From an uncultured Prevotellaceae bacterium (GTDB taxonomy: Bacteria > Bacteroidota > Bacteroidia > Bacteroidales > Muribaculaceae): a stretch of 64,000 nt of DNA. The stretch is taken from assembly GCA_900317325.1 (NCBI GenBank), contig ONGE01000004.1:1-64000 (forward strand), written 5' to 3'. The notes under the pieces are model-generated. The model saw nothing but the letters and a program-made list of their open reading frames with translations, was not told the DNA's origin and made no database searches. Of the stretch, positions 879-23,838 are shown in pieces; position 1 is the stretch's first letter; each line of letters begins with the position of its first letter. Both the position numbers and the translations under genes were made by a program.

Positions 879-2624
879 TTAAAACATAAAAGCGTCTCCA
901 CCATGGAAATATATGTCATTGCAGAATTCCTCCCACCATCCTTCTTTGATTGACTTATAATATTGGTCAAGCAATTCTGGAACAAAGGATGGATGAATGT
1001 CGTCGACAATAATGTTTCTGTTTTTAAGCTTCTGGCAGATACTTTCGAACGTCTCCCCTGGATTCCTTGAAACATTCAGTCGAACCGCATCTGCTGAAAC
1101 TATCCTGTTTTCAAGCCTTTGTTTGTATTTATCCTTCCATACTTCTTCTAGAATATCCATAGGAAAATATTTTTTCCCATTGTTCGATTGCTTGAATATC
1201 TCGTCAGATATAGTGGGATCATGACGAAAATAGAATTTTCTGACTTGAGGTATCTTTTTAAAGTCTACTCCCTTGTCCATCTCCAAAAGGAATCCATGCT
1301 GAGCACCGCTACGCATAAACACCTGCTTGCCAATCACAGACAGGGCATAACCTTCTTGTTGGGCGAAAGCACCTGGCATCTGAAGTTCATAGCAATAAAT
1401 CATCCCCAACTTTTCAGTACTATGCACAGGCTTGTATTCATCAGTTTCTTTATCATAATTGGTCGTTGCAAAGAACTTTGCGCCTTCCAAATCAGATGTC
1501 AAATCTAAAAAATGAGTCTTATGATAATAATGCTGCGCCAATCCCACTAAATTCATCAGAATGCTAAAATGATCATGCATAATCACTATGCCTTTCTCAA
1601 GCAGTTTCACCAATGGATGGGTCATCAGTAGTACTTCCATTTCTTGAGACCAAATCAGATCATCCAAAAAATAGGTTTTGGTTTCATCACGATATAGGTT
1701 AGGCGTACAAGGTTTCGGATAGTCCTGACTTTGGCCTCGATAGAGAAATTTCTTACCATACAAGTTCGGTTTCAGGGTGAAATGAAACTTACCATCGGGA
1801 TGGATTTGGTTCTGATTGACAATAAATCCATCTGCAGGTATGTTATCGTCATGATAAAAGGACACATAAGAACACGCCCAAGGGACTCGAAACTGTCTAA
1901 ACTCCAGATCATAGAAATACTGTTGCGAAGCAATATCTCTCAGCAATGCATCATTAGCGAATGCATCCTCTTCAAGTTTTCGAATATAATCAGACGCTTC
2001 GTTCACATTATCGAACGGATTTTCCTCAGTTCCCTTCTCAGACTTGTCAATAACCCTCACCGTCGATTTGGGTGGTTTTGTGTAGTATCGGTCCGCATAT
2101 TTCTTTTCGTCGCTCCGTGTAAGCATAAACTTCCAAACATTGCCAGATTTAACAAACTCTTTGGGCATCAAGTAATACTCTGTATTCATCCCAAATTCTT
2201 CTTTTAATATGCGCTGGGTCTTATCCAATAAAGATTTAACTAGTGGAGGAATGGGCGGCATCGGAAGTGTCAGACCTTTAATAGTTTGTAGTGCACAATT
2301 GAAAGCCAATGCATCCTCTATTGCTTCATAAGAGTATTGATCAAACCCATTGGGTCTTTTTGCCTGCTGATACAACATCCGCACCTTGCAATAAACTTCA
2401 CAACGCGTACTCGTTAGAGTCTCATTTCTTATCTCTTGATTAACCCACGATTCGTCAAGAACAAGACATCCGTCAGGTGTGATGGTTGAATGATGCGAAA
2501 CACCAGCATCGGGCTGTATTTGCGGCACATAAATAATTCGCACATTTGACATGTCAAAGCCCAGAATACCACATGCTTCTTTGACATATCCTCGAATAAC
2601 CTCATCTGCAACTTGGTCTATCAT
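879..2624 (-). CDS. FRG domain-containing protein
   Basis: A 581-residue protein with the two hallmarks of the FRG domain: YRGQSQ near residue 295, followed by PNLYRD, and the LAQHYYHKTHFLDLT segment near residue 360, which matches the family's G-x-x-QH-(G/Y)-x-x-T-x-x-LD pattern. The ~280 N-terminal residues look like a separate module; a CEVYCKVRMLY stretch is visible, but I cannot name it. FRG proteins are widespread in phages and defence islands and their activity is not well established. Here the gene stands alone, divergent from hipBA across a 441-bp gap. Start: ATG at 2624, the first in frame. Confidence 0.8.
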   Translation of the reverse strand: MIDQVADEVIRGYVKEACGILGFDMSNVRIIYVPQIQPDAGVSHHSTITPDGCLVLDESWVNQEIRNETLTSTRCEVYCKVRMLYQQAKRPNGFDQYSYEAIEDALAFNCALQTIKGLTLPMPPIPPLVKSLLDKTQRILKEEFGMNTEYYLMPKEFVKSGNVWKFMLTRSDEKKYADRYYTKPPKSTVRVIDKSEKGTEENPFDNVNEASDYIRKLEEDAFANDALLRDIASQQYFYDLEFRQFRVPWACSYVSFYHDDNIPADGFIVNQNQIHPDGKFHFTLKPNLYGKKFLYRGQSQDYPKPCTPNLYRDETKTYFLDDLIWSQEMEVLLMTHPLVKLLEKGIVIMHDHFSILMNLVGLAQHYYHKTHFLDLTSDLEGAKFFATTNYDKETDEYKPVHSTEKLGMIYCYELQMPGAFAQQEGYALSVIGKQVFMRSGAQHGFLLEMDKGVDFKKIPQVRKFYFRHDPTISDEIFKQSNNGKKYFPMDILEEVWKDKYKQRLENRIVSADAVRLNVSRNPGETFESICQKLKNRNIIVDDIHPSFVPELLDQYYKSIKEGWWEEFCNDIYFHGGDAFMF

Positions 2625-3065: not shown

Positions 3066-3365
3066 ATGGGAAAGAATACATTCGGCAAAACGATGCCAAG
3101 GGCATTGAGCCAGAACCTGAAGATTATGGGCGAGCAAATCATGTTGGCCCGCAAGCGTAGGCATCTGTCTATGCAGGATATTGCAGACAGAGCTACGGTG
3201 ACGCGCCTAACTGTCTCTAAGGTGGAACATGGTGACCCAACAGTTTCCATGGGTATCTATGCGCGTGTTCTCTTTGCACTTAATCTAGAAAACGATATCA
3301 CCCTGCTTGCTGCTGATGACGCTCTTGGCAGACAACTTCAGGATGCAGAATTACTGAGAAAATGA
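3066..3365 (+). CDS. hipB: HipB-like XRE-family antitoxin
   Basis: A 99-residue protein with a Cro/C1-type HTH at about residues 20-75 (ARKRRHLSMQDIADRA, then VTRLTVSKVEHG and a YARVLFALNL helix). This is the usual layout of the HipB antitoxin, which dimerises, binds the operon operator and neutralises HipA. The start at 3066 lies 20 nt after the -7 element. The stop overlaps the hipA start (ATGA at 3362-3365), so the two genes should be translationally coupled. An operator-like dyad lies directly upstream. Confidence 0.85.
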   Translation: MGKNTFGKTMPRALSQNLKIMGEQIMLARKRRHLSMQDIADRATVTRLTVSKVEHGDPTVSMGIYARVLFALNLENDITLLAADDALGRQLQDAELLRK

Positions 3366-4612
3366 AGAGGATTATAGTTTACGCAGATTTTGACTTTCTA
3401 TCTGCTCCACAGGAGATTGGAACATTGGGTTACGAACATGTTCGTGGCAAAGACCATTTTGTCTTTGAGTATTCGCGCCATTGGCTGAAGCAGCATGGCG
3501 GCATTCTGCTGAGCGGTGACCTGCTGAATGTCCCTTCGTTGCAGCATCCTCGTGGTAATGATAATGTCTTCGGTTTCGTCAAGGATTCCTTCCCCGATCG
3601 TTGGGGGCGTTTATTGCTTGACCGCAGAGAGCGACTGACTGCCCAACAGGAAGGTAGGCCGAAACGTATGCTTACTAATTACGACTATCTCATAGGGATT
3701 GAAGACTTTACGCGCATGGGTGGCATACGTTACAAAGAGGAAGATGGTAATGACTACATCAACGCGAGTGCAAAATACCTTGTTCCCCCTATTGAGAGTC
3801 TTCGTGCCCTATGCGATGCTTGCCATGAGATTGAGTTGGCAGAGGAGCGTAATGTATTACCGGAACAACGCTGGCTTGACCAGTTGATTGACCCGGGAAC
3901 CTCACTTGGTGGTGCTCGTCCTAAGGCCAATGTGGTTGATACAGACGGAAAACTGTACGTTGCAAAGTTCCCATCAAAAAAGGATCTGGAGAATACTGAG
4001 CTTATAGAGCACTTTTCACATCAACTGGCGGCCAAGGCTGGTATCAACGTGGCAAAGACGCGCACCATGAAGATTTCAAAAGACCGTGATCTGCTTCTTT
4101 CTGAACGCTTCGATAGAACAGCAGAGGGCCGTCGCATTCATTTTGCTTCCGCTATGTCGTTGCTTGGTCTTGATGATGGTGCTGGCAGCAGCACAGGTAA
4201 CGGCTATCTTGATATTGTTGATTTCATCCTTCGTGGGTGTTCCGATGTGCGTCAGAATCTCAGGGAACTATATCGCAGAGTGGCATTTAACGTCATGTTT
4301 GGCAATACCGATGACCACTTCCGCAATCATGGTTTCCTGCTCACGCCGAAAGGCTGGACACTCTCTCCAGCATACGATATCAATCCAGGAGCAAAGTCAC
4401 ATCAATGCTTACTCATCGATTCATACACAGAAGAGTCAGACATCAACGCCTTACTCTCTGCAAGTGAAAGCTACATGCTTGAACACCAAGAAGCATCAGA
4501 GATTATTGAGGAGGTTCGTGCTGCCATCAAAGACTGGCGCAAGACCGCTACTGAACAGCACATTTCCCTCAAACTGCTTGAATCATACTCAATGCTATGG
4601 GAAGAATTGTAA
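3362..4612 (+). CDS. hipA: HipA-family serine/threonine kinase toxin
   Basis: A 416-residue protein with the HipA fold in one chain: N-terminal subdomain, then the SLGGARPKA loop near residue 180 (family G-loop, G-x-x-x-GARPK), the catalytic segment FGNTDDHFRNHG near 313 and DINPG near 339 (metal binding). HipA kinases phosphorylate a translation component (glutamyl-tRNA synthetase in E. coli), causing growth arrest. All key residues appear intact, so the toxin should be active. It is coupled to hipB by a 4-bp overlap. A 71-bp gap separates it from the unrelated four-gene operon downstream, so read-through is possible. Confidence 0.9.
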   Translation: MKRIIVYADFDFLSAPQEIGTLGYEHVRGKDHFVFEYSRHWLKQHGGILLSGDLLNVPSLQHPRGNDNVFGFVKDSFPDRWGRLLLDRRERLTAQQEGRPKRMLTNYDYLIGIEDFTRMGGIRYKEEDGNDYINASAKYLVPPIESLRALCDACHEIELAEERNVLPEQRWLDQLIDPGTSLGGARPKANVVDTDGKLYVAKFPSKKDLENTELIEHFSHQLAAKAGINVAKTRTMKISKDRDLLLSERFDRTAEGRRIHFASAMSLLGLDDGAGSSTGNGYLDIVDFILRGCSDVRQNLRELYRRVAFNVMFGNTDDHFRNHGFLLTPKGWTLSPAYDINPGAKSHQCLLIDSYTEESDINALLSASESYMLEHQEASEIIEEVRAAIKDWRKTATEQHISLKLLESYSMLWEEL

Positions 4613-4683
4613 GACTTTTCGAATTAACATGAGTGACACGGTGATTATTATCTATATTTGATTAATAACGTTGACACAAGACA

Positions 4684-5589
4684 ATGGCACAAAAGATACA
4701 TATCACATTCAAGACACGATCAACACTTGCCAATATCTTTAAGAAAGAAATGGATGAACTTGGTTTTGATACATCTGAACTGAACAATGAAAAAGACACT
4801 CTTCATGCCTATTGCTCTTATGTATCGAGACTTGTGGAAACAAGGCCACGTAAGATTCATAAGGCAGATACATTTGTATGCCCTGAAAATGTGAAAATTG
4901 GTCTCGCATGGTTGGAGAGCAAGATAGAAAAAGGTGAAAGCGTGAATGCTCATCTTAATGGGGCGTCGAAGAAAGATAAGTTGGATGGTCTGCTTTATGA
5001 TTGGGGCATCCAACATTTACATTTGGGCGAAGAACTAGCTGCGCCAGGCTATGTGAAGAGGACGGGAAATGTTCTGTTTGCCATTTTCAAGCCTAACGAT
5101 GTTTACTTCGTCGATATTAGAGACCACGAAGGATGGTCAGACAAGGCATTGCTGGATACGGTAAACAGGAACTGGCCTGAATTACTTTCGTGCTATAAGA
5201 TAGATGGTAAGAGCGAATATAACCCAACAAACACTGATATTATCCAGCTGAGAAAAAATGGTGTCAATGCCATGATAGAACTTGCTGATGGGAACTCTTA
5301 TATCTCGATGGGTGGTGGTATCACTACAGCAGGAACCAGCATGAATGCTGCAAGGACGTATGTAGAACTAATACGGATGTTGAACGGTGTAGAGAACCAA
5401 ATCCATAAGAATGTCAGATATTTTTCAAAAAGCCTTAGACCTAAAGGCCGTGCCATGCTTAACAGGTTTAGATTTGTATTCGTATGTAGACGTGATGGGG
5501 ATATGATTCGCTTTTATGATGTTGTGAATAACAACTATTGGGAGCAATGTTTGGCTATCCCGACATTGAAAGTGAGGTTTGGTATATGA
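4684..5589 (+). CDS. unknown protein, first gene of a putative defence operon
   Basis: A 301-residue soluble protein that I do not recognise. Visible features are a charged N-terminus, a DWGIQHLHLG motif near residue 110, a YVKRTGNVLFAIF strand near residue 125 followed by VYFVDIRDHEGW, and a mixed alpha/beta C-terminus (RFRFVFVCRRDGDMIRFYDVV). The H-x-H pair suggests a metal or catalytic site, but that is only a guess. It opens an operon with no gaps: the next gene starts at the overlapping ATGA at 5586. A TATATTTG at 4653-4660 could be a -7 element but lacks a good -33 partner, so the operon may also be read from hipBA. Confidence 0.7.
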   Translation: MAQKIHITFKTRSTLANIFKKEMDELGFDTSELNNEKDTLHAYCSYVSRLVETRPRKIHKADTFVCPENVKIGLAWLESKIEKGESVNAHLNGASKKDKLDGLLYDWGIQHLHLGEELAAPGYVKRTGNVLFAIFKPNDVYFVDIRDHEGWSDKALLDTVNRNWPELLSCYKIDGKSEYNPTNTDIIQLRKNGVNAMIELADGNSYISMGGGITTAGTSMNAARTYVELIRMLNGVENQIHKNVRYFSKSLRPKGRAMLNRFRFVFVCRRDGDMIRFYDVVNNNYWEQCLAIPTLKVRFGI

Positions 5590-6611
5590 TACAAGAAAAG
5601 AGTATAAACATTATGACAGAGGCAGAGACAAGAGAATATGAACAGACGCGACGGAGGGTGAAGTACAACAATTGTTGGCCCTCTGAGAGGTGGATTTCAC
5701 CATTACAAGAAGAACTGCTTGCAAGAATGGATAAGGTGGGACTAAAGCAAGTATTTTATCCAATGGCGCTGGATGAAAGCCGAGCTGTTGACATGCTGTT
5801 TGAGGATGCGGAACTTAACAGGCTGCTTTCAACTTTGTTGGATCTGTATGATGAACTCCCTTTGCGACCTGATGCCGCATTTGATGTGGCATGGCGGGCA
5901 CTTGAGATAGTCATTATTTTGTATTTTAAGAACTACGACCAACAGGTGTATTTTGATAAGAAAGCCAGTACGGAGGAAAAAATAAAACGTATATGCAATG
6001 CTGTGTTTGATTCTCAGTTGAAAACGAATGAGAAACTGATGGATGTATTTAACCGTTTGATAGGTGACAATGTCTCATGGAGTGTGCTGCATTATATCGT
6101 AGCAAGGATGTTTCTGCCAGGAGAGTTACAGGTTAAGACACAGCATGATTATGTAAGTGCTCGATGCAGAGAAATATTGGGCGTAGACATGTATGAAGAT
6201 ATAAAGACAAAATATGTTGTGGATGAGAATCTGACGGCAGACAATCACAGGAAAGCAGAAAGATTGTTGGGGCTCATCATTAAAGGAATGCCCGTAAAAC
6301 TGGGTGCACATTCATATAAGGCACTTAGTCTGCAAGAAAGAATTACATATGTCCTATCAGGAATTCTGTATTCTTCTCGTTGTGAGCGGTTCCATGGCGA
6401 TTTCTTCTCTCCGCTGAAAAGTGACAGGTCAACTCTGCAGACTTATTACGGACAATACTGGCTGCTGACAGTCAGTTATATGTTCTTCTGGATGGTGGTG
6501 CAGAAGTATTTGGAAAAGAAAGGCGTGGAACCATTCTTTACGCTGGACGATCTAGCAGAATGCGTTAACAAGACAATAGATTCATCAACGGCTGTAATGA
6601 TAAAAAGATAA
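5586..6611 (+). CDS. predicted HEPN-like protein (RxxxxH motif), operon gene 2
   Basis: A 341-residue protein, helical by composition, not assigned to a named family. Near residues 264-270 it has SSRCERFHGDFFSP. R-C-E-R-F-H-G fits the R-x4-H motif of HEPN ribonucleases and resembles the RxxLFHG form of Apea-type HEPN proteins. A long aromatic helix follows (YGQYWLLTVSYMFFWMVV). HEPN proteins are commonly RNA-cleaving effectors in toxin and abortive-infection systems. The frame is open from 5538, but the ATG at 5586 overlaps the upstream stop (ATGA) and is preferred. Only 2 nt separate it from the next gene. The HEPN call is motif-based. Confidence 0.65.
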   Translation: MIQEKSINIMTEAETREYEQTRRRVKYNNCWPSERWISPLQEELLARMDKVGLKQVFYPMALDESRAVDMLFEDAELNRLLSTLLDLYDELPLRPDAAFDVAWRALEIVIILYFKNYDQQVYFDKKASTEEKIKRICNAVFDSQLKTNEKLMDVFNRLIGDNVSWSVLHYIVARMFLPGELQVKTQHDYVSARCREILGVDMYEDIKTKYVVDENLTADNHRKAERLLGLIIKGMPVKLGAHSYKALSLQERITYVLSGILYSSRCERFHGDFFSPLKSDRSTLQTYYGQYWLLTVSYMFFWMVVQKYLEKKGVEPFFTLDDLAECVNKTIDSSTAVMIKR

Positions 6612-6613
6612 GT

Positions 6614-7891
6614 ATGGTACAGAGATGGTATGTTGAATGCCCAATATGTGGCAAACTATATCAGATAAAGATGCAGATTGACATGAATATAGGTCTATAT
6701 GAATGGCCTATCAGTTTTGAATGTCTGGAGTGTGGTGAGAATCTTGACTACACTTTTAGCAAGAAAGGACTCCGACCCAAGAAAAGTGATTTTCAGCCGA
6801 GTCCATCAGATGCACCAATAACTACAATAGGCTATTCATCGTCGCTGCCTATTTCTGACGAACTCTATATGAAAGATTTAGACTATGTGCAATCCATGGC
6901 TTTATCATCACCGTATATGAATTTGACTTATAGTGGCGGGTTCATAATTGAGGAAGTTCATCAATTTGATCTTTTCTTACAAAGGATGCAGGAGAATCTG
7001 CTGCCATATAAAGGTGTATTACTGTCGCTTCTGCCCATATTCAAAAAAGGGAATGTAGATGCTTTCAGTAAAAAAATGGCATTACTCTTCGATATGAAGA
7101 GGTATAAACCATTGACCTCATCCAAAGGCATGTATGATACTTATTTTGAATTGATAGAGAAAAGCTATCATAATCTCATTACACCTTACTATTATGAGCA
7201 TTATTTTAAGCGAAATGTGAAGCCACTTAGTGATTACTTGAATGGCGCGTCTTCGGCTGACATCAAGGCAATAAAGGAGAAGTTGGATGAAAGCGGGAAG
7301 ATTTCGGCATGGTACGAAAATGAAGCTATACCATATATAGCCGAAGCGATGAATAAGATACAAAAACTGATACCGGCTATGATTTATTCGAGTGTGGGTG
7401 AAAGTGACGTTGCCAAGAGGGGGAATTTGAAAATTGTAACTATTTCTTGTGAAGAGGTCGTTTCCATGTATAGTAAAGGTTTTGAGACCTATACACATGC
7501 ATTGAAGATTATGGTAGGTTTGAACAATATAGTGGAAAACGGTAATATTGATACATTTACCAATCCGAAGGTGGGGGGAGTGGATTCAATTGATAAATTT
7601 GCAAGATTATCGGGGGGGAAAATGCTAGAACATCTGGAAGACTATGCAACCATATACGACTATCTCGATGGAGCCATGAACAATAAGGTGCGAAACGCCG
7701 CAAGCCATGGAGAGGGAGGCTTGGAATATGTGGTATTGACGCAAGAGGTGAAATGCTACTATGATGACTCAGACAGGAGTAAGCATTATGATACGTCGCT
7801 AATAGCGATATGCAGGATTTGCTACGTGCAGTTACTGCATATACTGGAAGTGACGCTGCTGGCGAGGAAAATTGTGGAAAAAGTGAACTGA
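6614..7891 (+). CDS. zinc-ribbon protein with C-terminal HEPN-like motif, operon gene 3
   Basis: A 425-residue protein. The N-terminus carries a zinc ribbon: C9-x2-C12 and C37-x2-C40. The middle is helical and unrecognised. Near residues 360-366 it has VRNAASHGEG, an exact RNxxxH HEPN signature, followed by a closing helix (IAICRICYVQLLHILEVTLLARK). This makes a second HEPN-type protein in the same operon, here with a nucleic-acid or protein-binding ribbon in front. It starts 2 nt after the previous stop and ends 19 nt before the nuclease gene. Family membership rests on motifs alone; the motif itself is clear. Confidence 0.7.
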   Translation: MVQRWYVECPICGKLYQIKMQIDMNIGLYEWPISFECLECGENLDYTFSKKGLRPKKSDFQPSPSDAPITTIGYSSSLPISDELYMKDLDYVQSMALSSPYMNLTYSGGFIIEEVHQFDLFLQRMQENLLPYKGVLLSLLPIFKKGNVDAFSKKMALLFDMKRYKPLTSSKGMYDTYFELIEKSYHNLITPYYYEHYFKRNVKPLSDYLNGASSADIKAIKEKLDESGKISAWYENEAIPYIAEAMNKIQKLIPAMIYSSVGESDVAKRGNLKIVTISCEEVVSMYSKGFETYTHALKIMVGLNNIVENGNIDTFTNPKVGGVDSIDKFARLSGGKMLEHLEDYATIYDYLDGAMNNKVRNAASHGEGGLEYVVLTQEVKCYYDDSDRSKHYDTSLIAICRICYVQLLHILEVTLLARKIVEKVN

Positions 7892-7910
7892 CTTTAGATC
7901 CTTTTATGAT

Positions 7911-9053
7911 ATGATTGCACCAACTCAGATGAAAAAGCCTAGTAATTGGCAAGATTTCGAAAAGCTCTGCAAATTATTGTGGGGTGAGATATGGGACTGC
8001 GAAGATACCATCAAACAGCATGGTAGGCAGGGGCAAAACCAACATGGTGTGGATGTGTATGCTTACGTAGAGAAGTATAAGGGCTATTGTGGTATTCAGT
8101 GCAAGGGTAAGGATGACTATACAAATGCTGAACTTACAGAGGCAGAGATTGAGGATGAAATCGAGAAAGCATTAACCTTTGAACCGGAATTAAAGCTGCT
8201 CGTTTTCGCCACCACAGCGAACAAAGATGCCAAAATAGAATCTTATATAAGGAAGAAGGATATTGAGAATAGGAATAAGAGCCTCTTTGCCGTTGACATA
8301 GCTTCATGGGAGGATATAGTTGATCACTTGGAGCGTTATAGAACAACATATAACTGGTATGTGAACAACTGCCAATTCAAGGAAGCAACGGATGTGACTG
8401 TTTCCTTTGATGGAGAAGAGGAAGTGGTGATATATCCTGAATATGTACGGACAACATACCATTACGTTTATCAAGAGCAAAATCCGTTGGCATTAGATTT
8501 TATGGCAACATTGAAGCAAATTAATGCCATTACAACTCACTCTGGCATATCGCCATGGAATAGAACTATAAGGGTAGATAAGAGGTGGTGCAAGTTGCGT
8601 ATTCAGATAGAGAACACAGGTAGTACTGTAATAAAGACACCAAAGCTACAAGTGTTCTTCAGAGATGAGGATATAGAAGATATTTCTGATAGGTTTAGCT
8701 ATTGTAATGACCCTCATATAAATGAGACTGCAAGAGCTCAAATAAATGTTGGCAGGGATGCAAAAAGGGAAGTGTTCCAAGTTTACGATACAGGCGTGGA
8801 ATATCGACCTAAAGAGAGCGTCTTTGTCCAAAAGGATAGTAGGTTATTTACAATTAGCATTATTCCGAGAGAGGGGAAGAAAGAAATCCCTTTAATCTGG
8901 AGGTTTCTTTGTGAGGATTATCAAAAGGACGGCTTCTTGACGGTTGTTATTGAACCAAGGATAGAAGAAATAACAAAGACGATAGAGGTTGAGAGTGAAG
9001 CTAACCTAAAACCAGATGAGGTGGTTCTTGAAGCTAAGATAGAAGAGACATAA
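7911..9053 (+). CDS. Mrr-like PD-(D/E)XK nuclease-fold protein, operon gene 4
   Basis: A 380-residue protein. Residues 12-70 show a restriction-endonuclease fold: NWQDFEKLCKLLW with E17, then GRQGQNQHGVDVYA with D48, then YCGIQCKGK with Q63-x-K65, i.e. the E...D...(E/Q)xK arrangement of Mrr-like enzymes. A Rossmann-like extension follows (LKLLVFATTANKDAKIESYIR). The C-terminal ~200 residues look beta-rich, possibly a recognition domain. Catalytic residues appear intact. Start: ATG 7911; ATG 7929 (MKKPSNWQDF) is an equally good alternative. It ends the operon and a hairpin follows at 9254. It is probably the DNA-cleaving arm of a defence system (inference). Confidence 0.8.
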   Translation: MIAPTQMKKPSNWQDFEKLCKLLWGEIWDCEDTIKQHGRQGQNQHGVDVYAYVEKYKGYCGIQCKGKDDYTNAELTEAEIEDEIEKALTFEPELKLLVFATTANKDAKIESYIRKKDIENRNKSLFAVDIASWEDIVDHLERYRTTYNWYVNNCQFKEATDVTVSFDGEEEVVIYPEYVRTTYHYVYQEQNPLALDFMATLKQINAITTHSGISPWNRTIRVDKRWCKLRIQIENTGSTVIKTPKLQVFFRDEDIEDISDRFSYCNDPHINETARAQINVGRDAKREVFQVYDTGVEYRPKESVFVQKDSRLFTISIIPREGKKEIPLIWRFLCEDYQKDGFLTVVIEPRIEEITKTIEVESEANLKPDEVVLEAKIEET

Positions 9054-9253: not shown

Positions 9254-9305
9254 ACGAGCATCCCCTGATTCTGCTTTTCGTGAGCTGAGTCGGGGGATGT
9301 CTCGT
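9254..9305. terminator. hairpin terminator after the four-gene operon
   Basis: ACGAGCATCCCC on the left pairs imperfectly with GGGGGATGTCTCGT on the right across a loop of ~25 nt. It lies between the plus-strand operon (stop 9053) and the end of a decayed minus-strand gene (stop 9320), a typical place for a shared terminator. In the 200 bp before it, a 27-codon frame starts at 9060, six bases after the operon stop. It may be the stub of a lost fifth gene, but I would not call it. Confidence 0.5.
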
Positions 9306-11528: not shown

Positions 11529-11613
11529 TAGATATGAAAGAATGTCCTATTATTATATTTTTGACTTATTTATTTCAGTTAATTGTGTCGATGCAGTCGA
11601 CGCAATCAATAAA

Positions 11614-11711
11614 GTATTCAACCTTTGAGAATTTCGGCATTTTTCAGTATTCAACCTTTGAGAATTTCGGCATTTTCCAGTATTCAGCCTTTGAGAATTT
11701 CGGCATTTTCT
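11614..11711 (+). repeat. three tandem 33-bp repeats upstream of the ATPase
   Basis: Units begin at 11,614, 11,647 and 11,680. Each contains CAACCTTTGAGAATTTCGGC (the third has CAGC) followed by ATTTT and CAG. A degenerate fourth copy (CCTTTGATATTTGGGATTTT) follows at about 11,720 and supplies the TTTG that acts as the -33 element. The array therefore looks like tandem duplication of the upstream promoter segment. Confidence 0.85.
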
Positions 11712-11721
11712 GCACATTTCC

Positions 11722-11752
11722 TTTGATATTTGGGATTTTATGTTTACATTTG
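11722..11752 (+). promoter_or_regulatory. promoter of the AAA/DUF4143 ATPase
   Basis: TTTG at 11,722-11,725 and TACATTTG at 11,745-11,752 are separated by 19 nt. The TTTGCACCTGATAA that follows is identical over 14 nt to the sequence after the hipB -7 element. The ATPase start lies 24 nt downstream. Confidence 0.75.
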
Positions 11753-11775
11753 CACCTGATAATACAAAGAGGAAA

Positions 11776-13143
11776 ATGGCAGAAAGAATTTTCAGACGCA
11801 AAATATATGAGCAAATGCTGAGTTGGAAGCAAAATCAGCACGGAACGACAGCACTTCTTATCAGGGGTGCAAGGCGTGTCGGCAAGTCCACTGTTGCCGA
11901 GGAATTTGCCCGTAATGAATACGAGAGCTACATTTTGGTTGACTTCTCAACAGCAACGCAAGCAATACACCGTTTGTTTGAAGATGTCTCCAATTTGGAC
12001 TACATCTTCACCCAATTGCAACTTAACTATCGAAAAAGCCTGAAACCACGCAAGTCTGTCATCATCTTTGATGAAATACAGAAGCAGCCATTAGCCCGGC
12101 AAGCCATTAAAACACTTGTGGCCGATGGACGCTACGATTACATCGAAACAGGCTCTCTATTGAGCATCAAGCGTAAAAGGAAGTCAGCTGGCAACTCCGA
12201 GCAACAGAAAAACATTCTCATTCCCAGTGAGGAAACGCGCCTTGATATGTACCCCATGGATTATGAGGAGTTTCGTTGGGCATTGGGAGACGACCAAACT
12301 ATTCCACTTTTGCGCACAATGTTCAACAGCCTAAGTCCGCTAAGTGACGATACCAACCGTCGAATGATGCGTGATTTTCGTCTGTATGTCTTGGTTGGAG
12401 GCATGCCCCAGGCAGTCAACGACTACATTGACTCACACGATTTGAGTATTGTTGACCAGCGCAAACGCAGCATCCTTGACCTCTACGATGAGGATTTCTA
12501 CGAGTTGGATCCGTCAGGGCAGACCTCTGATTTGTTTCACGCTATCCCATCCCAACTAAACAGCAACGCCTCTCGCTATAAGGTAAGTAGCGTGATTACA
12601 GGAGGGAAATTGGACCGTCTGAGAGATCAGATATCCATTCTTAAAGATTCAATGACCGCAAACCTGGCTTATCACGCCAATGACCCAAGTGCAGGCTTGG
12701 CATCACACATCAACCGCGACCAGTTCAAATTGTATTGTGGAGATACGGGGCTGTTCGTAACTCTCGCTTTCTGGGACGATGCATTTACAGAGAATGTCAT
12801 TTACCAAAAATTGCTGAGCGATAAACTGAACGCAGATGTGGGCTACGTATATGAGAACGTGGTATCGCAGATGCTGACAGCCGCAGGACATAAGTTGTAT
12901 TACCATACGTGGCCAACACCATCGGGCAAGCATAACTATGAAATAGACTTCCTGTTGTCCCGTAAAGCTAAAATCTGCCCGATAGAAGTCAAGTCATCGA
13001 CATCCAATCTTCATGTTTCCATTGATGAATTCCAGAAGAAGTTCTCGGCCCGCATCCTTCAACGATACCTCCTTCATTCGAAGGACATTCGGAAAGAGCG
13101 GGACTTGATAATGCTGCCAATGTATATGGCAATGTTTCTTTAG
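11776..13143 (+). CDS. AAA-family ATP-binding protein with DUF4143 C-terminus
   Basis: A 455-residue protein. Walker A is GARRVGKST near residue 32; Walker B is VIIFDEIQK near 95. The ETGSLLSIKRK and TRLDMYPMDYEEFRWAL segments are typical of the AAA_14/DUF4143 group. The C-terminus has YENVVSQML and NYEIDFLL...PIEVKSS, a PD-(D/E)XK-like D...ExK signature found in these proteins. The family is very common in Bacteroidetes, often in many copies, and its cellular role is unknown. The longer frame from 11,740 would start inside the promoter, so ATG 11,776, preceded by AGAGGAAA, is chosen. Confidence 0.85.
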   Translation: MAERIFRRKIYEQMLSWKQNQHGTTALLIRGARRVGKSTVAEEFARNEYESYILVDFSTATQAIHRLFEDVSNLDYIFTQLQLNYRKSLKPRKSVIIFDEIQKQPLARQAIKTLVADGRYDYIETGSLLSIKRKRKSAGNSEQQKNILIPSEETRLDMYPMDYEEFRWALGDDQTIPLLRTMFNSLSPLSDDTNRRMMRDFRLYVLVGGMPQAVNDYIDSHDLSIVDQRKRSILDLYDEDFYELDPSGQTSDLFHAIPSQLNSNASRYKVSSVITGGKLDRLRDQISILKDSMTANLAYHANDPSAGLASHINRDQFKLYCGDTGLFVTLAFWDDAFTENVIYQKLLSDKLNADVGYVYENVVSQMLTAAGHKLYYHTWPTPSGKHNYEIDFLLSRKAKICPIEVKSSTSNLHVSIDEFQKKFSARILQRYLLHSKDIRKERDLIMLPMYMAMFL

Positions 13144-13578: not shown

Positions 13579-14178
13579 ATGTTCTTAAAAAACTACAAGT
13601 ATTTTCATGATCCATTCGAAAGACTGGACCAAAAATGGCAGTATGCAATTGCCAAAGGTTACCTGACAGTAACCGAGACAGCTGAACTATCAGGGTTCAG
13701 CCGCCAGTATGTCAACAGCCAGATTTTATCGGGCAAGATCAAAAGCGTAAAAGGCCGTAACGGAACCATCGGAATTCGTGCCAGGGAATTCACGAAGTGG
13801 TATTCTTCCCTAGACGTCCTTCCCTCATCTCCAATCGGGAAAAGCTCCTTTTCTCTGAAGGGGCTCATGAAGCAAATCAGAATGGGAAGGGCTTGGGTAC
13901 TGAAGTTTGCCGACAGGAATAATATCTCTTGCTATTATCTTGGCAAGTTCAGAAGATTTGACAAAGAGGAAGCTATTGTAGCCTGGGACAGAGAACGCTT
14001 TCTGTATCAAAAATGGATCACTGTGGAAGAAGCAACGCTCAACATGGAGATCACACAGCACGAGCTGTACATGCTCGTCGCCACTCACCTGGTAAGGACA
14101 AGGAAGATGGAATGCGTCCTCCACTATCTCAAGAGTGACATCGCAAAAAATATAGAAAGGAGGCAACACCATGTATAG
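13579..14178 (+). CDS. excisionase-like DNA-binding protein with two HTH modules
   Basis: About 199 residues. The first module, YLTVTETAELSGFSRQYVNS with GKIKSVKGRNGTIGIRAREF, has the winged-helix excisionase/MerR layout. A second module near residue 135 (WITVEEATLNMEITQHELYM) is similar. The gene overlaps the tyrosine recombinase by 8 bp, so it is probably a partner that helps direct recombination or regulates it. The longest frame starts at GTG 13,564; ATG 13,579 (MFLKNYKYF) is preferred but not certain. Confidence 0.65.
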   Translation: MFLKNYKYFHDPFERLDQKWQYAIAKGYLTVTETAELSGFSRQYVNSQILSGKIKSVKGRNGTIGIRAREFTKWYSSLDVLPSSPIGKSSFSLKGLMKQIRMGRAWVLKFADRNNISCYYLGKFRRFDKEEAIVAWDRERFLYQKWITVEEATLNMEITQHELYMLVATHLVRTRKMECVLHYLKSDIAKNIERRQHHV

Positions 14179-15286
14179 AGTTGCATTGAGATACAAATCA
14201 AAGAGAGGTGACACCATGAAGTCTGTCTACCTTGAGTTCAGACCTTCCATTACTGATATTCGGGGTCATGTCATCAGATATGAGTTCCTGAACCTTGAGC
14301 TCTACACGAAGCCGAAAAACGCTATTCAAAAACAGCATAACAAGGTGATTGAGGAAGTTGCGGAGGAAATCCGATGCAAGAGGTATCTACAGTTGGTGAG
14401 AAGGGACTTCTCTTTTATCTCGAAAGACAATCTGGATGGTGACTTTTTGGAGTATTTCAGAAAGAATGGTGACTATCATGGTCCCAAGTACGAATGCGCG
14501 AGGCTCCACTTCGAGAAATTCTGTAACCACAAATGCGCATTCAAGGATATTAACGGTGCTTTGTGTAATAAATACAGAGCATATCTTTTGAGGGACACAA
14601 AGCTGCACGACGGAGCAAAGGAACTGTCACATAATACAGCAAGTGCCTACTTCAATGTGTTCTTGAGCTTGGTCAAGCTTGCGTTCGTGGATCATGTCCT
14701 TGGCGAGGATTACACAAAATATGTGAGACCAATCAGATGGAACCATGACACCCAGAAGGAGTATTTGAGCATCAACGAGGTACATCTGCTAGAGCAAACT
14801 CCATACGAGAAGTGCCCAGAACTGCGGAGAGCATGCCTACTTTCCATCTACACAGGTCTAAGAAGGAGCGATGTGCTGAAATTACATTGGGAGCAAATTG
14901 TAGACAGATCGACTCAGAACACCTATATTGAGATCAAGATGTCGAAGACAGACCACTTCGTCTACCTTCCTATATCAAAGGCAGCCATAAATATCTTGGG
15001 AGAAAGGCAGAATGAAGGATTGGTGTTTACGAAACTAACAGAAAGCATTCTGAACACACATCTTTCGAGGTGGCTCAAAGCAGCGGGTATCAACAAACAT
15101 ATCACGTTTCATTGCTTTAGGCACACTTTTGCCATGATGCTTCAGGAACTGGGCACAGGAATTTACGTCATCTCCAACCTGCTCGGGCACAAAAATGTAT
15201 CAAGCACTCAGCATTATGCCAAGATGAAAAGCAGTGATGCGCAAGAGGCAATTGACAGAATGGATGAAGCCTATGAAATGAAATAA
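14171..15286 (+). CDS. tyrosine recombinase / integrase
   Basis: A 371-residue protein. A SAM-like core-binding domain (CARLHFEKFCNHKCAFKDI and YRAYLL) precedes the catalytic domain. Visible catalytic residues are Arg in TGLRRSD near 230, Lys in the MSKTDHFV beta-hairpin near 258, His-x-x-Arg in FHCFRHTFA near 313, His in LLGHKN near 340 and the nucleophile in STQHY near 348. All are intact, so the enzyme should be active. A second in-frame ATG at 14,216 follows a purine-rich stretch. It is the only recombinase in the window and lies just inside the left 124-bp direct repeat. Confidence 0.9.
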   Translation: MYRVALRYKSKRGDTMKSVYLEFRPSITDIRGHVIRYEFLNLELYTKPKNAIQKQHNKVIEEVAEEIRCKRYLQLVRRDFSFISKDNLDGDFLEYFRKNGDYHGPKYECARLHFEKFCNHKCAFKDINGALCNKYRAYLLRDTKLHDGAKELSHNTASAYFNVFLSLVKLAFVDHVLGEDYTKYVRPIRWNHDTQKEYLSINEVHLLEQTPYEKCPELRRACLLSIYTGLRRSDVLKLHWEQIVDRSTQNTYIEIKMSKTDHFVYLPISKAAINILGERQNEGLVFTKLTESILNTHLSRWLKAAGINKHITFHCFRHTFAMMLQELGTGIYVISNLLGHKNVSSTQHYAKMKSSDAQEAIDRMDEAYEMK

Positions 15287-17103: not shown

Positions 17104-17135
17104 CTTGCTTATTTTATAACTAATTACTATCTTTG
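17104..17135 (+). promoter_or_regulatory. promoter of rhuM
   Basis: CTTG at 17,104-17,107 and TATCTTTG at 17,128-17,135 are 20 nt apart. The GTG that would open the longest frame lies within the -7 box, so translation should start at ATG 17,178 after a leader of ~37 nt. Confidence 0.7.
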
Positions 17136-17177
17136 TGCGCAAAAAGTGACGCAATAAGGCTATTATTTGACAGAGAT

Positions 17178-18209
17178 ATGAGCAACGAAATACAGTTTTT
17201 GTTATACAACCTGCCCGAAGATGACGGCAAAGTGCAGGTGGTCATCAAGGATGACACCATCTGGTGTACCCAGAAGGCAATGTCTCAACTCTTCGGAGTT
17301 GGCGTGCCTGCAATCAGCAAGCATCTTTCAAACATTTATGAGGAAGGAGAACTGCAAGAGCAGGCAACTATTTCCAAAATGGAAACAGTTCAAATTGAGG
17401 GTTCAAGAGAAATAAGACGTCAAGTTGATTTTTATAGCCTTGATGCCATTATCGCCGTCGGCTACCGTGTGTCATCGTTACGGGCAACCCGGTTCCGTCA
17501 GTGGGCAACCAGAGTACTCAACGAGTATATCCGCAAGGGATTCGTTCTTGACGACGACAGGTTGAAGCAGGGCATTTCTGTGTTCGGCAAAGACTACTTT
17601 CGCGAGTTGCTGGAACGGGTGCGTTCCATCCGCGCCAGCGAGCGCAGGATATGGCAACAGATAACAGATATCTATGCCGAGTGTAGCATCGATTATGATA
17701 GCAACTCGCCGACGACACGGGAGTTCTATGCGATGGTGCAGAACCGCTTCCATTATGCTATCACTGGCCATACTGCTGCCGAAATCATCTACACCAAAGC
17801 AGACCACGCTAAGGAGCACATGGGGTTGACCACATGGAAGAACTCTCCCGACGGGCGCATCCTCAAATCGGACGTGTCAGTGGCAAAAAACTACCTGACT
17901 GAGAAAGAAATCCGCCAACTCGAGCGAGCCGTCTCAGGTTATTTCGACTACATCGAAGACCTTATCGAGCGTGAAAACACGTTCAATATGGAGCAGTTCG
18001 CAGCCAGCGTCAACGAATTTCTCGCTTTTAGGCGATATGAGATACTACCGGATAAGGGAAACGTGTCCGCTAAGCAGGCAAAAGACAAAGCTGAGCGAGA
18101 GTACGACATCTTTAACCGAACGCAGCGCATAGATTCAGACTTTGATAAGCGCGTCAGGGGCATGCTCGAACAGGGCGATGGTGACGATGGTGACGATGGT
18201 GGGAAATAA
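17178..18209 (+). CDS. rhuM: RhuM family protein
   Basis: A 343-residue protein with the RhuM/Fic-associated layout. The N-terminal DNA-binding-like region has the motif IKDDTIWCTQKAMSQLFGV, then ISKHLSNIYEEGEL, VDFYSLDAIIAVGYRV and FRQWATRVLNEYIRKGF. The central and C-terminal part contains FYAMVQNRFHYAITGHTAAE, KADHAKEHMGLTTWKN and FLAFRRYEIL. RhuM was named in a Salmonella pathogenicity island; its biochemical role is not settled, and it often sits among restriction or toxin genes. The C-terminus is an acidic GDDGDDGG repeat. It is followed after 53 bp by a DNA methyltransferase gene, possibly in the same transcript. Confidence 0.9.
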   Translation: MSNEIQFLLYNLPEDDGKVQVVIKDDTIWCTQKAMSQLFGVGVPAISKHLSNIYEEGELQEQATISKMETVQIEGSREIRRQVDFYSLDAIIAVGYRVSSLRATRFRQWATRVLNEYIRKGFVLDDDRLKQGISVFGKDYFRELLERVRSIRASERRIWQQITDIYAECSIDYDSNSPTTREFYAMVQNRFHYAITGHTAAEIIYTKADHAKEHMGLTTWKNSPDGRILKSDVSVAKNYLTEKEIRQLERAVSGYFDYIEDLIERENTFNMEQFAASVNEFLAFRRYEILPDKGNVSAKQAKDKAEREYDIFNRTQRIDSDFDKRVRGMLEQGDGDDGDDGGK

Positions 18210-18262
18210 CTTTTAAAGGCATAATCCCAATGAGCATACAAGGCTTTATATAATAAAGGGCA

Positions 18263-19594
18263 ATGGTCGATCAAAGACAAGCAAGAATTAAAAAGGAACT
18301 AGAAGCATACCGGCTTTCATATATGAAAACGGGTATGCCAATAACTGTTAATTTCCGTAGTTTGGTGCCAGAGTTGAAGAAAAGTGATCGTTATTCGCAT
18401 CAGATTCACTCATATCCAGCCAAGTTGTTGGCTAATATTCCATATTATTTCCTTGCTACTGACGTGTTTTGCCCTAGTAATGGCATTGTTCTTGACCCTT
18501 TCTGCGGCACGGGAACGGTTCTTTTAGAAGCTCTACTCAGTGGGCGGAGTGCATTGGGGGCCGATGCCAACCCGTTGGCAGAGTTAATAACCTCGGTAAA
18601 AACAAACTATATTGCAAAAGAAACACTTCAGGAAACTTTAGGCCAGATAATGAAACGGGCCAAAAGCTACAGAAAGATTATTGAATATCCCAATGCGGTA
18701 GCAGTTTGGTACTCCATGACAAGTCTGCGCCAGCTGACGAACCTTCAACGAGCCATCAATAAAGTTGAGGATGAACGTCAAAGGGCGTTCTTTGAGCTTT
18801 GTTTTTCTAGTACAGCCAGGAAAGTGAGCTACTCTGATCCATCTATCTCCGTGCCGGTTCGCTGGAATCCTAGGCGTTTCAGCGCCAACCCAAATCGAGA
18901 GAAGGAAGTAAGGGAGAAGCTTGAAGAGCTAAAGACGATTAATGTTTACATGAAATTTGAAACAATTTGCAAAGCAAATATTGACAGGCTTGAAACACTT
19001 AACGGCAAGATACGAGATGATGTGGCTGCTAGGATTGTCGCTAATGATGCGCGGCAACTGGGACTAGAAGACAAAAGTGTTGATCTGATACTGACTTCGC
19101 CTCCGTATGCGGGAGCACAGAAATATATCCGTGCATCATGGCTGAATCTGTATTGGCTAAATAGGGTAAAACTTGAAAATGTTAGGGAATTGAAGAAACG
19201 CAACATTGGTAGAGAAGACTACAAGAAATCGGAAGTTTTTGAAAGCTACACCGGAATTGAAGCAGCTGACCAGGTATTGCGGATGCTATACAATAAAGGC
19301 AAAACAGAAAGGGCATTCCTTGTTGCCAACTACCTAAATGAGATGAAAGTAGCTTTAGATGAGTCTTGCCGAGTACTAAAAGCGAATGGTTATATGGTGA
19401 TTGTAATAGGCAATAACACCGTATGTGGACAGTCATTTTATACGCAGGACTACTTGACCCGATATCTTGAATGCAAAGGCATGACATTACAGTTTAAACT
19501 GATAGATGATATTAAATCTTACGGCCTGATGACCAAAAGAAATAAAACCGCTAATAGGATTACCAGGGAATGGATACTGGTATTCAAGAAATAG
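18263..19594 (+). CDS. DNA methyltransferase (N4/N6 class)
   Basis: A 443-residue protein. An early HSYPAKLL segment (residue ~50) is followed by motif I LDPFCGTGT near 78 for AdoMet binding, then ALGADANPLAE. Motif IV TSPPY is near 277. The SPPY form is typical of N4-cytosine enzymes but also occurs in some N6-adenine enzymes. A late VIVIGNNTVCGQSF strand completes the fold. No restriction endonuclease is adjacent; instead it overlaps (25 bp) or nearly touches a PRTase-like gene and an AAA ATPase gene, so it is probably the modification or self-recognition part of a multi-gene defence system (inference). Confidence 0.88.
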   Translation: MVDQRQARIKKELEAYRLSYMKTGMPITVNFRSLVPELKKSDRYSHQIHSYPAKLLANIPYYFLATDVFCPSNGIVLDPFCGTGTVLLEALLSGRSALGADANPLAELITSVKTNYIAKETLQETLGQIMKRAKSYRKIIEYPNAVAVWYSMTSLRQLTNLQRAINKVEDERQRAFFELCFSSTARKVSYSDPSISVPVRWNPRRFSANPNREKEVREKLEELKTINVYMKFETICKANIDRLETLNGKIRDDVAARIVANDARQLGLEDKSVDLILTSPPYAGAQKYIRASWLNLYWLNRVKLENVRELKKRNIGREDYKKSEVFESYTGIEAADQVLRMLYNKGKTERAFLVANYLNEMKVALDESCRVLKANGYMVIVIGNNTVCGQSFYTQDYLTRYLECKGMTLQFKLIDDIKSYGLMTKRNKTANRITREWILVFKK

Positions 19595-20613
19595 AGAATA
19601 TGGAAGATAGGGAGAGATATGCCATATACAACAAGATTGATATCTTAAACAGCATTCTATGGGATAATCGGGTTCTGAAACCCTGGATTGAGGATTGGCT
19701 GGGCAACTTCAAGGAAGATGAGAGGGACGATGCCCTTTACTTGTTATCTAAATGTATGTATTTCAACAATGCCAGTATAAGAGCTATCCTAAGAGCATTA
19801 TACAGAGATAAGTATCGGACCCCTATCATTCAAGCCATTAGGGAGGCTAATAACGGCACCCTTGATGAAAATGTGATTGAGACGGCATTCCATGTTCGAC
19901 TGATGAATACCCGTTTCCTGGGTGTTGGTAACCCTTCGGAGAGTGGGGTTCACTTATTATATTACTTTAGGCAAGAGAATAAGATTCCCAAGAAGTTATT
20001 TGTTAATACGGATGACCTTTATGAAGTGAAATCAACCGGAGAGGTTCTGTTGAGAAAAGAATGTGCTAGTGTGGAACATATTGTATTCATAGACGATTTA
20101 TGTGGAAGTGGCCAACAGGCTAAGAGTGATAACAACGTAAAACGGTGCGTGGAAAAGCTTCGCAGTCTTGAGAATCCTCCTAAAATATCATACCTAATGA
20201 TGTTTGGAACAACGAATGGGATTGACATCGTTAGGAATGCCACTTTGAAAAACAGTGAAGTAAAACTGTTTGACGAGGCAGAAGCCGTAATGGAACTAAA
20301 TGAGAGTTATAGGTGCTTTAGTGATGATTCGCGTTATTTTAATGATGATGTGTCAAAAGAACAAGTACGTAAAATGGTTTTCAAGTATGGTGAGAAGTTG
20401 ATGGTTAAGATCGTGGAGAAAGATTATCCTAAAAAGAGCGAAAAGGAACGCAAAGTGATAGTAGAACATAGCGCGTTAGGTTTTGGCGACTGTCAACTAT
20501 TGTTGAGCCTTTACCATAATACTCCGAACAACACATTGCCTATCATTTGGTATGATGAGGATGATGAGGAGTGGACACCAATTTTCAAAAGATATAACAA
20601 AGTTTATTTTTAA
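19570..20613 (+). CDS. phosphoribosyltransferase-like (PRTase-CE type) protein
   Basis: A 347-residue protein. Near residues 168-182 it has EHIVFIDDLCGSGQQ, which matches the PRPP-binding loop of phosphoribosyltransferases (hydrophobic strand, D-D, then G-S/T-G) and the variant I know from conflict-system PRTase-CE proteins. An N-terminal helical part (DDALYLLSKCMYFNNASIRA) may be the associated winged-helix region. GFGDCQLLLSLYHNTPNNTL near the C-terminus is the other conserved part of that family. The product or target is unknown. ATG 19,570 overlaps the methyltransferase; ATG 19,600 just after its stop is an alternative. The ORC/CDC6-like gene follows 5 bp later. Confidence 0.7.
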   Translation: MDTGIQEIENMEDRERYAIYNKIDILNSILWDNRVLKPWIEDWLGNFKEDERDDALYLLSKCMYFNNASIRAILRALYRDKYRTPIIQAIREANNGTLDENVIETAFHVRLMNTRFLGVGNPSESGVHLLYYFRQENKIPKKLFVNTDDLYEVKSTGEVLLRKECASVEHIVFIDDLCGSGQQAKSDNNVKRCVEKLRSLENPPKISYLMMFGTTNGIDIVRNATLKNSEVKLFDEAEAVMELNESYRCFSDDSRYFNDDVSKEQVRKMVFKYGEKLMVKIVEKDYPKKSEKERKVIVEHSALGFGDCQLLLSLYHNTPNNTLPIIWYDEDDEEWTPIFKRYNKVYF

Positions 20614-20618
20614 AGCGT

Positions 20619-22649: not shown

Positions 22650-23583
22650 TTATTTTAAAAAAGTGAAATATGACTCAGTGGATAATCTTTCTGGATTGGA
22701 AGAATATGACTGCCTTATCTCGTCATACGTAGAGGCTGACCGTGTGAGAGAACCAGCAGTAAGGATTCCTTGTAAAGAAATATGGTGGGTTTGTACAGAA
22801 TTGAACAAACCAGAAGAAAAAGAAGGAATACGATTGTTTCAAATTACTAGCGAATTCGATGGTGGCATCTGTGAAGCTTTGAAACAGGCTGGATACAAAC
22901 GACTATGTATCGACATTACTGGCTTTGTAATTCCCCAACTGTTACTCCTTCTGCGTTTTCTACAGATTAAAGGCTTTAATAGTTTTGACACAATTTATAC
23001 AGAGCCAAACAAGTATAAGTATAATGAAAACACCCAATTTTCTGATACTCCATTAGAGGTAAGGCAGATACTAGGATATGGTGGACAACATGTATCAGAC
23101 ATGAAGAATGATTTATTAGTAATTGCTGCAGGATATGATCACAGTCGTATCATTGACGTGGCTAGTGCGAAGAAAAGTGCGAAGAAGAAAGTTCTGCTTT
23201 TTGGATTTCCTCCGACAAGTCCAGGAATGTTCCAAGAGAATATCCTAAGAGCTTATCAAGCTGAAACCGCTATTGGTACAGACTGTTTTAAAAACATGGA
23301 TATGAATATTTTTGCGCCAGCAAATGACCCGTTCTCAACAGCCCAAGCCCTGAGGGATTATATGAATCGTAAAAGACGTAACGATTTTACGAATGTTTAT
23401 TTTTCTCCGTTGGCAAGTAAACCGCAGGCATTGGGGATGGCATTGTTCTATATGTGGGAAAAAGGTTGGGAAAAGCAGTGGAGTATTATATATCCATTCT
23501 GCAACAAATACATTGATGATACCACAACGGGTATTTCGCGTATTTGGAGATACGAGGTGGAACTACCAGAGTTGGGTAGTTGA
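22633..23583 (+). CDS. unknown alpha/beta protein, last gene of the PRTase/ORC operon
   Basis: About 316 residues. I do not recognise a named family. It looks Rossmann-like: strands IWWVCTELN, RLCIDITGFVIPQLLLLLRF, NDLLVIAAGYDH, KKVLLFGFPPTSPGM and NVYFSPLASKPQAL alternate with helices. The phrase GFPPTSPGMFQENILRAYQA is distinctive and could be used for searching. It could be the effector of the operon (nucleotide-processing fold), but no catalytic motif is plain. The frame opens at a TTG; ATG 22,633 or 22,639, both overlapping the ATPase stop, are the likely starts. Confidence 0.7.
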   Translation: MTMDYNYFKKVKYDSVDNLSGLEEYDCLISSYVEADRVREPAVRIPCKEIWWVCTELNKPEEKEGIRLFQITSEFDGGICEALKQAGYKRLCIDITGFVIPQLLLLLRFLQIKGFNSFDTIYTEPNKYKYNENTQFSDTPLEVRQILGYGGQHVSDMKNDLLVIAAGYDHSRIIDVASAKKSAKKKVLLFGFPPTSPGMFQENILRAYQAETAIGTDCFKNMDMNIFAPANDPFSTAQALRDYMNRKRRNDFTNVYFSPLASKPQALGMALFYMWEKGWEKQWSIIYPFCNKYIDDTTTGISRIWRYEVELPELGS

Positions 23584-23657
23584 AAATTATCATAGTTAGA
23601 AACGACGAAAGACCACTTTTTTAAGGGATGATTATTGAAGTTCACTTTATCGCACAG
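23584..23657. other. spacer before the right direct repeat
   Basis: No gene or clear terminator hairpin was seen between the end of the operon and the right 124-bp direct repeat. Confidence 0.35.
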
Positions 23658-23781
23658 CGTTAAACTAAGTCAAAAGTGTTAAATGTGAAGGTTTTGAAAG
23701 TTGTACTGCAAAACTCTACCATATTTGTACCATTTAGTTGACAACTTCTTGATAATCAATATGTTGCATCTTCTGCATCGG
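23658..23781 (+). repeat. 124-bp direct repeat, right copy
   Basis: Partner of 13,224-13,347, same orientation and same length; it ends in CTTCTGCATCGG. It lies 57 bp before the GIY-YIG-like gene, so it could also act as that gene's upstream region. Together with the left copy it delimits about 10.5 kb holding the recombinase and the RhuM, methyltransferase, PRTase and ATPase genes. Confidence 0.85.
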
Positions 23782-23838
23782 CAAATAAATAATGGATTAT
23801 CTGAGAATAGTTTAATCAGGCTTTAATAAAATAGGAAT

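Follow-up and report, generated by a model that had tools for sequence, protein, structure and literature searches.

Four adjacent genes, here called P1 to P4, lie at positions 4684-9053 of a 64,000-nucleotide stretch of DNA from an uncultured Prevotellaceae bacterium (contig ONGE01000004.1, positions 1 to 64,000; hereafter the window). Our preferred interpretation, to which we give a probability of roughly two in three, is that P1-P4 are transcribed as a single unit and represent separable anti-phage genes stacked together on a defence island. Each of the four proteins belongs to an already known kind: P1 to the PD-T4-7 family, P2 and P3 to the candidates for HEPN-type proteins, and P4 to the Mrr-like nucleases.

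The initial annotation had proposed a single four-gene defence system, but the distribution of the four families argues otherwise. Hidden Markov models of all four families were compared with 94 loci, gathered gene by gene, of which four represent the window itself and 90 do not. Relatives occupy 68 distinct places outside the window (14 for P1, one for P2, six for P3 and 47 for P4), and none of these places carries a second family of the set. P2 is absent from all six P3-family places, no relative of P1, P2 or P3 lies in the 17 kb around the closest relative of P4 (locus L017, 71%), and relatives of P1, P3 and P4 are absent from the 18-kb stretch around the P2 relative (L089). Since the relatives of each gene lack the other three, we read the four as separate genes and not as parts of one system. 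The four genes were thus not found together elsewhere as far as the searches reach, and four-part cooperation was rejected as the principal explanation for want of a second occurrence in the 90 loci. The collection scans were seeded by short near-exact peptides, so distant relatives would be missed.

The array and its setting

P1 (4684-5589, 301 residues) and P2 (5586-6611, 341 residues) overlap in an ATGA at 5586, P3 (6614-7891, 425 residues) follows after a gap of 2 nucleotides, and P4 (7911-9053, 380 residues) after a gap of 19. All four open reading frames (ORFs) run in the same direction on the forward strand. This layout had been described correctly in the initial annotation, which had also placed the motifs of P2 (RCERFHG), P3 (a zinc ribbon and RNAASH) and P4 (E17/D48/QxK65), the neighbouring hipBA genes and the AT-rich setting where we find them. 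The ORF list gives P2 from a TTG at 5538, upstream of the ATG at 5586, and a second in-frame ATG lies at 5613 (residue 10, MTE...), one residue off the MTE of the only convincing P2 relative. Homology to that relative begins at residue 8-9 of P2, and a start at 5613 would leave a 23-nucleotide gap after P1. The ATGA overlap may not mark the true start of P2.

The four genes are likely to be transcribed together. The sequence TATATTTG (4653-4660, forward strand) lies 24 nucleotides before P1, inside the 71-nucleotide gap between hipA and P1, and matches the consensus of the Bacteroidetes -7 promoter element, TAnnTTTG. On reading the gap, no TTTG was seen at the expected -33 distance from this box. 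The whole window holds 56 matches to -7-type boxes versus 36.5 expected by shuffling, comparable boxes also occur within P1 and within P3, and sigma-70-like promoter matches are near chance (24 found versus 19.3 expected). We regard the box as a candidate promoter of the array. At the other end, a strong hairpin (9254-9305, forward strand) about 200 nucleotides past P4 may mark the end of the transcription unit; its energy is -37.7 kcal/mol, whereas 200 shuffles average -19.7 (z -6.16).

The surroundings fit a defence setting, as had been suggested. The GC content, taken in 2-kb segments, is about 0.40-0.45 at 3-10 kb versus 0.44-0.59 (nearly all at least 0.47) at 26-64 kb. The left end of the island is out of view because the window begins at the first base of its contig (C25). 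Directly upstream of the array lie hipB (3066-3365, forward strand; helix-turn-helix matches) and hipA (3362-4612, forward strand; HipA_C, 1e-48), which we take as context only, and an integrase gene is found at 14171-15286 (Phage_integrase, 2.4e-23).

A PD-T4-7-like protein heads the array

P1 had been listed as unknown, but it matches two PADLOC models of PD-T4-7, with E-values of 7.9e-46 (residues 25-257) and 7e-33. In our own alignment of the window protein with 13 relatives, the residues invariant in 14/14 proteins include D101, H111, H113, L114, R126, H148 and P165, and the DWGIQHLHLG motif of P1 contains three of the invariant positions. Those kept across 14 diverse members, such as H111, H113, R126 and H148, are worth mutating. 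PD-T4-7 came out of a functional selection in E. coli, in a study that assigns it to the toxin-antitoxin-like and abortive systems (Vassallo et al. 2022, PMC9519451). Another study describes it as a single-gene abortive-infection system present in 155 of 22,803 RefSeq genomes (PMC11201134).

Relatives of P1 are mostly solitary. Of 15 matching plasmid records, 12 were inspected (proteins of 282-355 residues), and 11 of these have no annotated co-directional gene within 100 nucleotides in the PLSDB gene tables, which are incomplete. Within the window's order, the family is present in 2 of 246 other genomes, and a viral scan with P1 confirmed nothing. A likeness of the P1 profile to CdvA in the PDB (0.61) was taken as chance.

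Two HEPN-type candidates

P3 carries an N-terminal zinc ribbon of two CxxC pairs (C9, C12, C37 and C40) and a C-terminal RNAASH motif at residues 360-365. The four cysteines together with K358, R360, N361, A362 and H365 are invariant in all four proteins of an alignment of P3 with three relatives at 19-22% identity. A bare R-x4-H motif proves nothing, since 28% of shuffled P2 sequences and 19% of shuffled P3 sequences also contain one; what supports a HEPN assignment for both proteins is that the motif is conserved in their relatives, and in this respect the HEPN-type motifs reported initially have held up. Judged by motif conservation, P3 is a well supported, though not proven, HEPN-type protein, and the prediction for P2 is reasonably supported.

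P3 matches phrog_13366 (1.3e-9, residues 8-385). No Pfam HEPN family was matched by the whole protein at E-values up to 1 or by its C-terminal 154 residues at up to 10, and no PADLOC model at up to 1. Zinc fingers that appeared as a PDB likeness (0.082) were taken as chance. No relative was confirmed in viral scans that used P3 or its profiles, nor was there a phage match. In the class to which G1018 belongs (the genome that holds L019; its title gives Bacilli), one convincing member was found among 277 genomes. The family has no relative in 148 other genomes of the window's own family, and no convincing one in 392 other genomes of its order, where two weak matches (L002, L003) were seen. Among plasmid records, two match P3 itself and 29 match its relative in L068 (26 from Enterococcus, two from Lactococcus and one from Aeromonas). 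The relatives in L007 and L008 carry a C-terminal SEC-C motif, which P3 does not have, and the family profile was trimmed because this tail matched the short tails of long frames taken as SecA. Two partial profile matches were dropped, L069, whose frame looked by eye like ribonuclease (RNase) R, and L070. The combination of SEC-C, abortive infection and HEPN was not found in the literature searched.

Some P3 relatives adjoin recognised defence genes. In L068 the gene is immediately followed by one for a PycC cyclase (5.9e-81). In L007 (E. faecium) it is found downstream of bSEFIR (3.8e-44); the L007 protein matches PADLOC by its SEC-C tail alone. In L008 a Fic gene lies upstream of the relative and an FRG gene is close by, in L094 AbiGi-type and Fic genes are nearby, and in L092 and L093 the relatives sit among plasmid genes that have no annotated defence role.

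Two further arrangements were noted around zinc-ribbon or SEC-C HEPN genes. In L071 (5176-7869), a PycC cyclase gene and a second PycC-like gene come directly after a zinc-ribbon HEPN gene, which is possibly an unrecognised partner of a Pycsar-type cyclase. On three Enterococcus plasmids, a near-identical ORF of 57 amino acids (L092, 2736-2909; L093, 2737-2910; L094, 2737-2910) precedes the SEC-C HEPN gene by about 90 nucleotides. The upstream context is common to L092 and L093, and L094 differs on both sides; the ORF is a candidate for a small regulator or antitoxin.

P2 carries its RCERFHG motif at residues 265-271 and has one convincing relative (genome G400, L083/L089; 31-35% identity, E-value 1.4e-37). 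The segment SRCERFHGDFFS of P2 aligns with SRNNRFHGDNFS of the relative, and the R-x4-H is kept in both, as SRCERFHGD in P2 and SRNNRFHGD in the relative, which thus bears the usual RN...H form. The gene of the relative is convergent with that of Cas13b (1.3e-115), 96 nucleotides away. This locus of a same-order genome (L089, 1107-2276 and 2364-10105) contains an array of 18 clustered regularly interspaced short palindromic repeats, then PtuA, PtuB and Cas13b, and lastly the convergent P2 relative.

The P2 family is rare. The match just described is the only convincing one among 392 other genomes of the order; none was found in 394 other genomes of a phylum-level sample, and none was confirmed in the collections viral_contigs, plasmids, phages and genome_contigs, the plasmid scan having been run with the relative as query as well. 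Of five weaker matches in the order sample, two were judged chance (L084, a membrane-type protein, and L085/L091, a large frame); L086-L088 were left out of the frame reading. P2 matches no Pfam family and no PDB chain at E-values up to 10, and a resemblance to a DNA polymerase III subunit in NCBIfam (E-value 0.0018, 18.2 bits against a cut-off of 140) was taken as chance. P2 and its relative, P3, P4 and the closest P4 relative have no match in PADLOC 2.0.0 of 2023.

An Mrr-like nuclease family near defence genes

The Mrr-like nuclease core reported in the N-terminal domain of P4 (about residues 1-145) is supported. Its residues E17, D48, Q63 and K65 (Q63-C-K65) are invariant in 22/22 proteins of an alignment that comprises the window protein, 20 relatives of the same whole architecture and L041, which has a different C-terminus; N235 and G237 of the C-terminal domain are kept in 21/22. 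The match to the Pfam family Mrr_cat_2 (E-value 7.3e-4, 19.9 bits) lies under the cut-off of 22. The C-terminal domain (about residues 150-380) looks beta-rich by eye and matches no Pfam family above cut-off. PDB likenesses of P4 to designed TIM barrels (5.3e-4) and STN1 (0.002) were taken as chance. The architecture was not found in a literature search (Mrr-like nuclease, Ig-like, defence), which is weak evidence of its absence there.

The genome_contigs scan returned 43 loci with P4 relatives, 19 of which share the whole architecture, as does the plasmid locus L011; of these 20 relatives, 18 are in records titled as Bacteroidota lineages. Others share the N-terminal domain alone, several as fusions to large proteins, such as that of L015, in which a P-loop-like segment was seen by eye. 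No relative was found in 100 other genomes of the window's own genus, and a viral scan with P4 confirmed nothing.

Of the 20 whole-architecture loci, 11 have a recognised or likely defence-type neighbour no further than about 5 kb away. Immediate neighbours are HsdM of a type I restriction-modification (RM) system in L018 (5 nucleotides away) and AbiH in L020 (52 nucleotides). With genes in between, there are HsdR of a type I RM system in L017, PDC-M62A in L030, GajA/GajB (Gabija) in L032, and Piwi/SIR2 genes, according to the record annotation, in L011. The remaining loci have a ThsA-like SIR2 protein (L024), TmtA (L025), a HATPase weakly matching REase_II (L028), a type IIG RM gene (L034), and an AbiH in L021 that was counted solely by its resemblance to L020. 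As for the other nine loci, one gene was scanned in each of L019, L029 and L031, which gave no match or a weak one (PHP/AAA_21; HNH_5), and L022, L023, L026, L027, L033 and L057 were left out of the scan.

A similar-looking gene of 348 amino acids and no assigned family follows the P4 relative in L030 (9140-10186) and L027 (9116-10162). In L030 it overlaps the P4 relative by 4 nucleotides and has no Pfam or PADLOC match.

Other defence-like features of the window

A second packed, defence-like array lies at 17133-24393. It encodes a PDC-S05 protein, a type II methyltransferase, a PRTase_III-A protein, an ATPase weakly matching CARF6-STK-AAA, a CARF6 protein (22630-23583, 1.1e-81) and a protein with no assigned family (23839-24393), and thus places a CARF protein beside a phosphoribosyltransferase. 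Upstream of hipBA is a gene for an FRG-domain protein (879-2624, reverse strand; 3.5e-10) with PDC-S15 matches up to 2.6e-07, and between the P1-P4 array and the integrase gene is one for an AAA_14/DUF4143 ATPase (11740-13143; PADLOC PDC-S01, 3.6e-94). Overlapping short ORFs with repeated KCRNSQRLNT-type peptides at 11553-11841 (reverse strand) suggest a short tandem DNA repeat.

Discussion

How might a stack of separable defence genes operate? P1, as a PD-T4-7 homologue, would act as a single-gene abortive-infection protein. In P3, the ribbon or an associated factor would likely sense infection, whereupon a HEPN dimer would cleave RNA, and P2 may be a second, rare HEPN-type RNase. P4 may be a PD-(D/E)xK DNA nuclease of the Mrr-like kind, and its C-terminal domain probably serves to sense or dock. 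The stack would be read from one promoter; its genes probably came together through insertions that happened separately, and a joint complex is not required. The company that the relatives keep is consistent with such a stack, as P3 relatives lie by bSEFIR and PycC, the P2 relative by Cas13b and PtuA/PtuB, and P4 relatives by defence genes.

Several observations weigh against this interpretation. The gaps of 2 and 19 nucleotides and the possible 4-nucleotide overlap are tighter than a random stack needs, and with spacing so tight P1-P4 may cooperate here. The independence of P2 rests on one locus, as there is just one convincing relative. The co-occurrence sample held one representative per species and no strains of the window's own species, and flanks spanned about 1.5-9 kb, with several short contigs among them. 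The whole architecture is found at just 20 of the 47 P4 places, and the 11/20 figure for defence-type neighbours is a raw count that comes without a base rate from random genes, so the association is only suggestive. For P1, the relative in L009 has a helicase gene 48 nucleotides downstream, besides a transposase 55 nucleotides upstream, and a same-strand ORF ends 29 nucleotides upstream of the relative in the genome locus L005; the window P1 resembles these two copies in having close neighbours. Finally, the folds and activities of all four proteins are predictions from sequence.

An alternative, unlikely but the best placed of those we considered, is that P2 and P3 constitute one bipartite system, for example two HEPN proteins joined as a heterodimer, or an RNase and the protein that regulates it. 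P4 would then be a partner that cleaves DNA, and P1 an independent upstream gene. HEPN proteins usually act as dimers, the R-x4-H motifs of both proteins are conserved in relatives, and P4 follows P3 closely. Yet the 18-kb stretch around the P2 relative holds no P3 relative, none of the six P3-family places has P2, and P4 relatives occur where P2 and P3 do not. The 2-nucleotide gap is the reason to keep such a pairing in mind; no evidence for it comes from outside this genome. A bolder version of the same idea strikes us as improbable. It treats P2 and P3 as a new RNase switch of two components, whose active site would be built jointly by two dissimilar HEPN proteins, of which one bears a zinc ribbon. 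P4 would be a general add-on DNA nuclease that attaches behind many unrelated defence systems, and the outcome here would be a combined attack on RNA and DNA downstream of a PD-T4-7 trigger.

It is also very improbable that all four genes make up one recently assembled or very rare four-part system. The compact, co-directional array, framed by a candidate promoter ahead of P1 and a hairpin beyond P4, is what such a system might look like, but the distribution of the families described above, including the locus of the closest P4 relative, offers no second occurrence, and the P1 family is described as acting alone (PMC11201134). Least probable of all is that the genes serve as cargo of the toxin or addiction type, which keeps a mobile element stable and has no anti-phage role: hipBA adjoins the array, the integrase gene lies in the same window, and HEPN and abortive-infection proteins can be toxins, but family scans recognised no antitoxin-like partner in the array and the relatives repeatedly adjoin known anti-phage genes.

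If, as we prefer, P1-P4 are a stack of separable genes, then packed arrays rich in motifs can pass for single systems, and comparing synteny one gene at a time is a way to separate them. The analysis also singles out two families that PADLOC does not model: the Mrr-like nucleases, whose C-terminal domain is conserved and which recur near many unrelated defence systems, and a rare family of HEPN type, seen once beside Cas13b. If P4 is a portable accessory nuclease, it would be a specific and testable addition to how defence islands are built.

Comparison with known systems

P1 agrees with PD-T4-7 in matching both models of a family described as a single-gene abortive-infection system (PMC11201134). 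It differs in that it heads a packed array, and a PD-T4-7 role for it here, with abortive protection against T-even phages, is predicted from homology.

Like members of the HEPN superfamily, P2 and P3 have the R-x4-H motif, with an N after the R in P3 and in the P2 relative, whereas neither matches a curated Pfam HEPN family. Anantharaman et al. (2013, PMC3710099) already describe fusions of zinc ribbons to HEPN domains, as well as HEPN genes in the vicinity of restriction genes. With the zinc-ribbon/SEC-C HEPN-type proteins of Enterococcus and Lactococcus plasmids, P3 has in common the four-cysteine ribbon and the K.RNA..H motif. In contrast to the members in L007 and L008, P3 ends without the SEC-C tail, its identity to its relatives is a mere 19-22%, and, unlike the plasmid proteins, it has a HEPN-type neighbour. 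A zinc-finger/ribonuclease layout is present among the 21 systems of PMC9519451, under no name that the part of the paper available would let us link to P3.

P4 differs from Mrr-type PD-(D/E)xK nucleases in a C-terminal domain outside the Pfam families. It resembles them in E17, D48, Q63 and K65, in the weak match to Mrr_cat_2, and in that its N-terminal domain is also found fused to larger proteins, as in L015.

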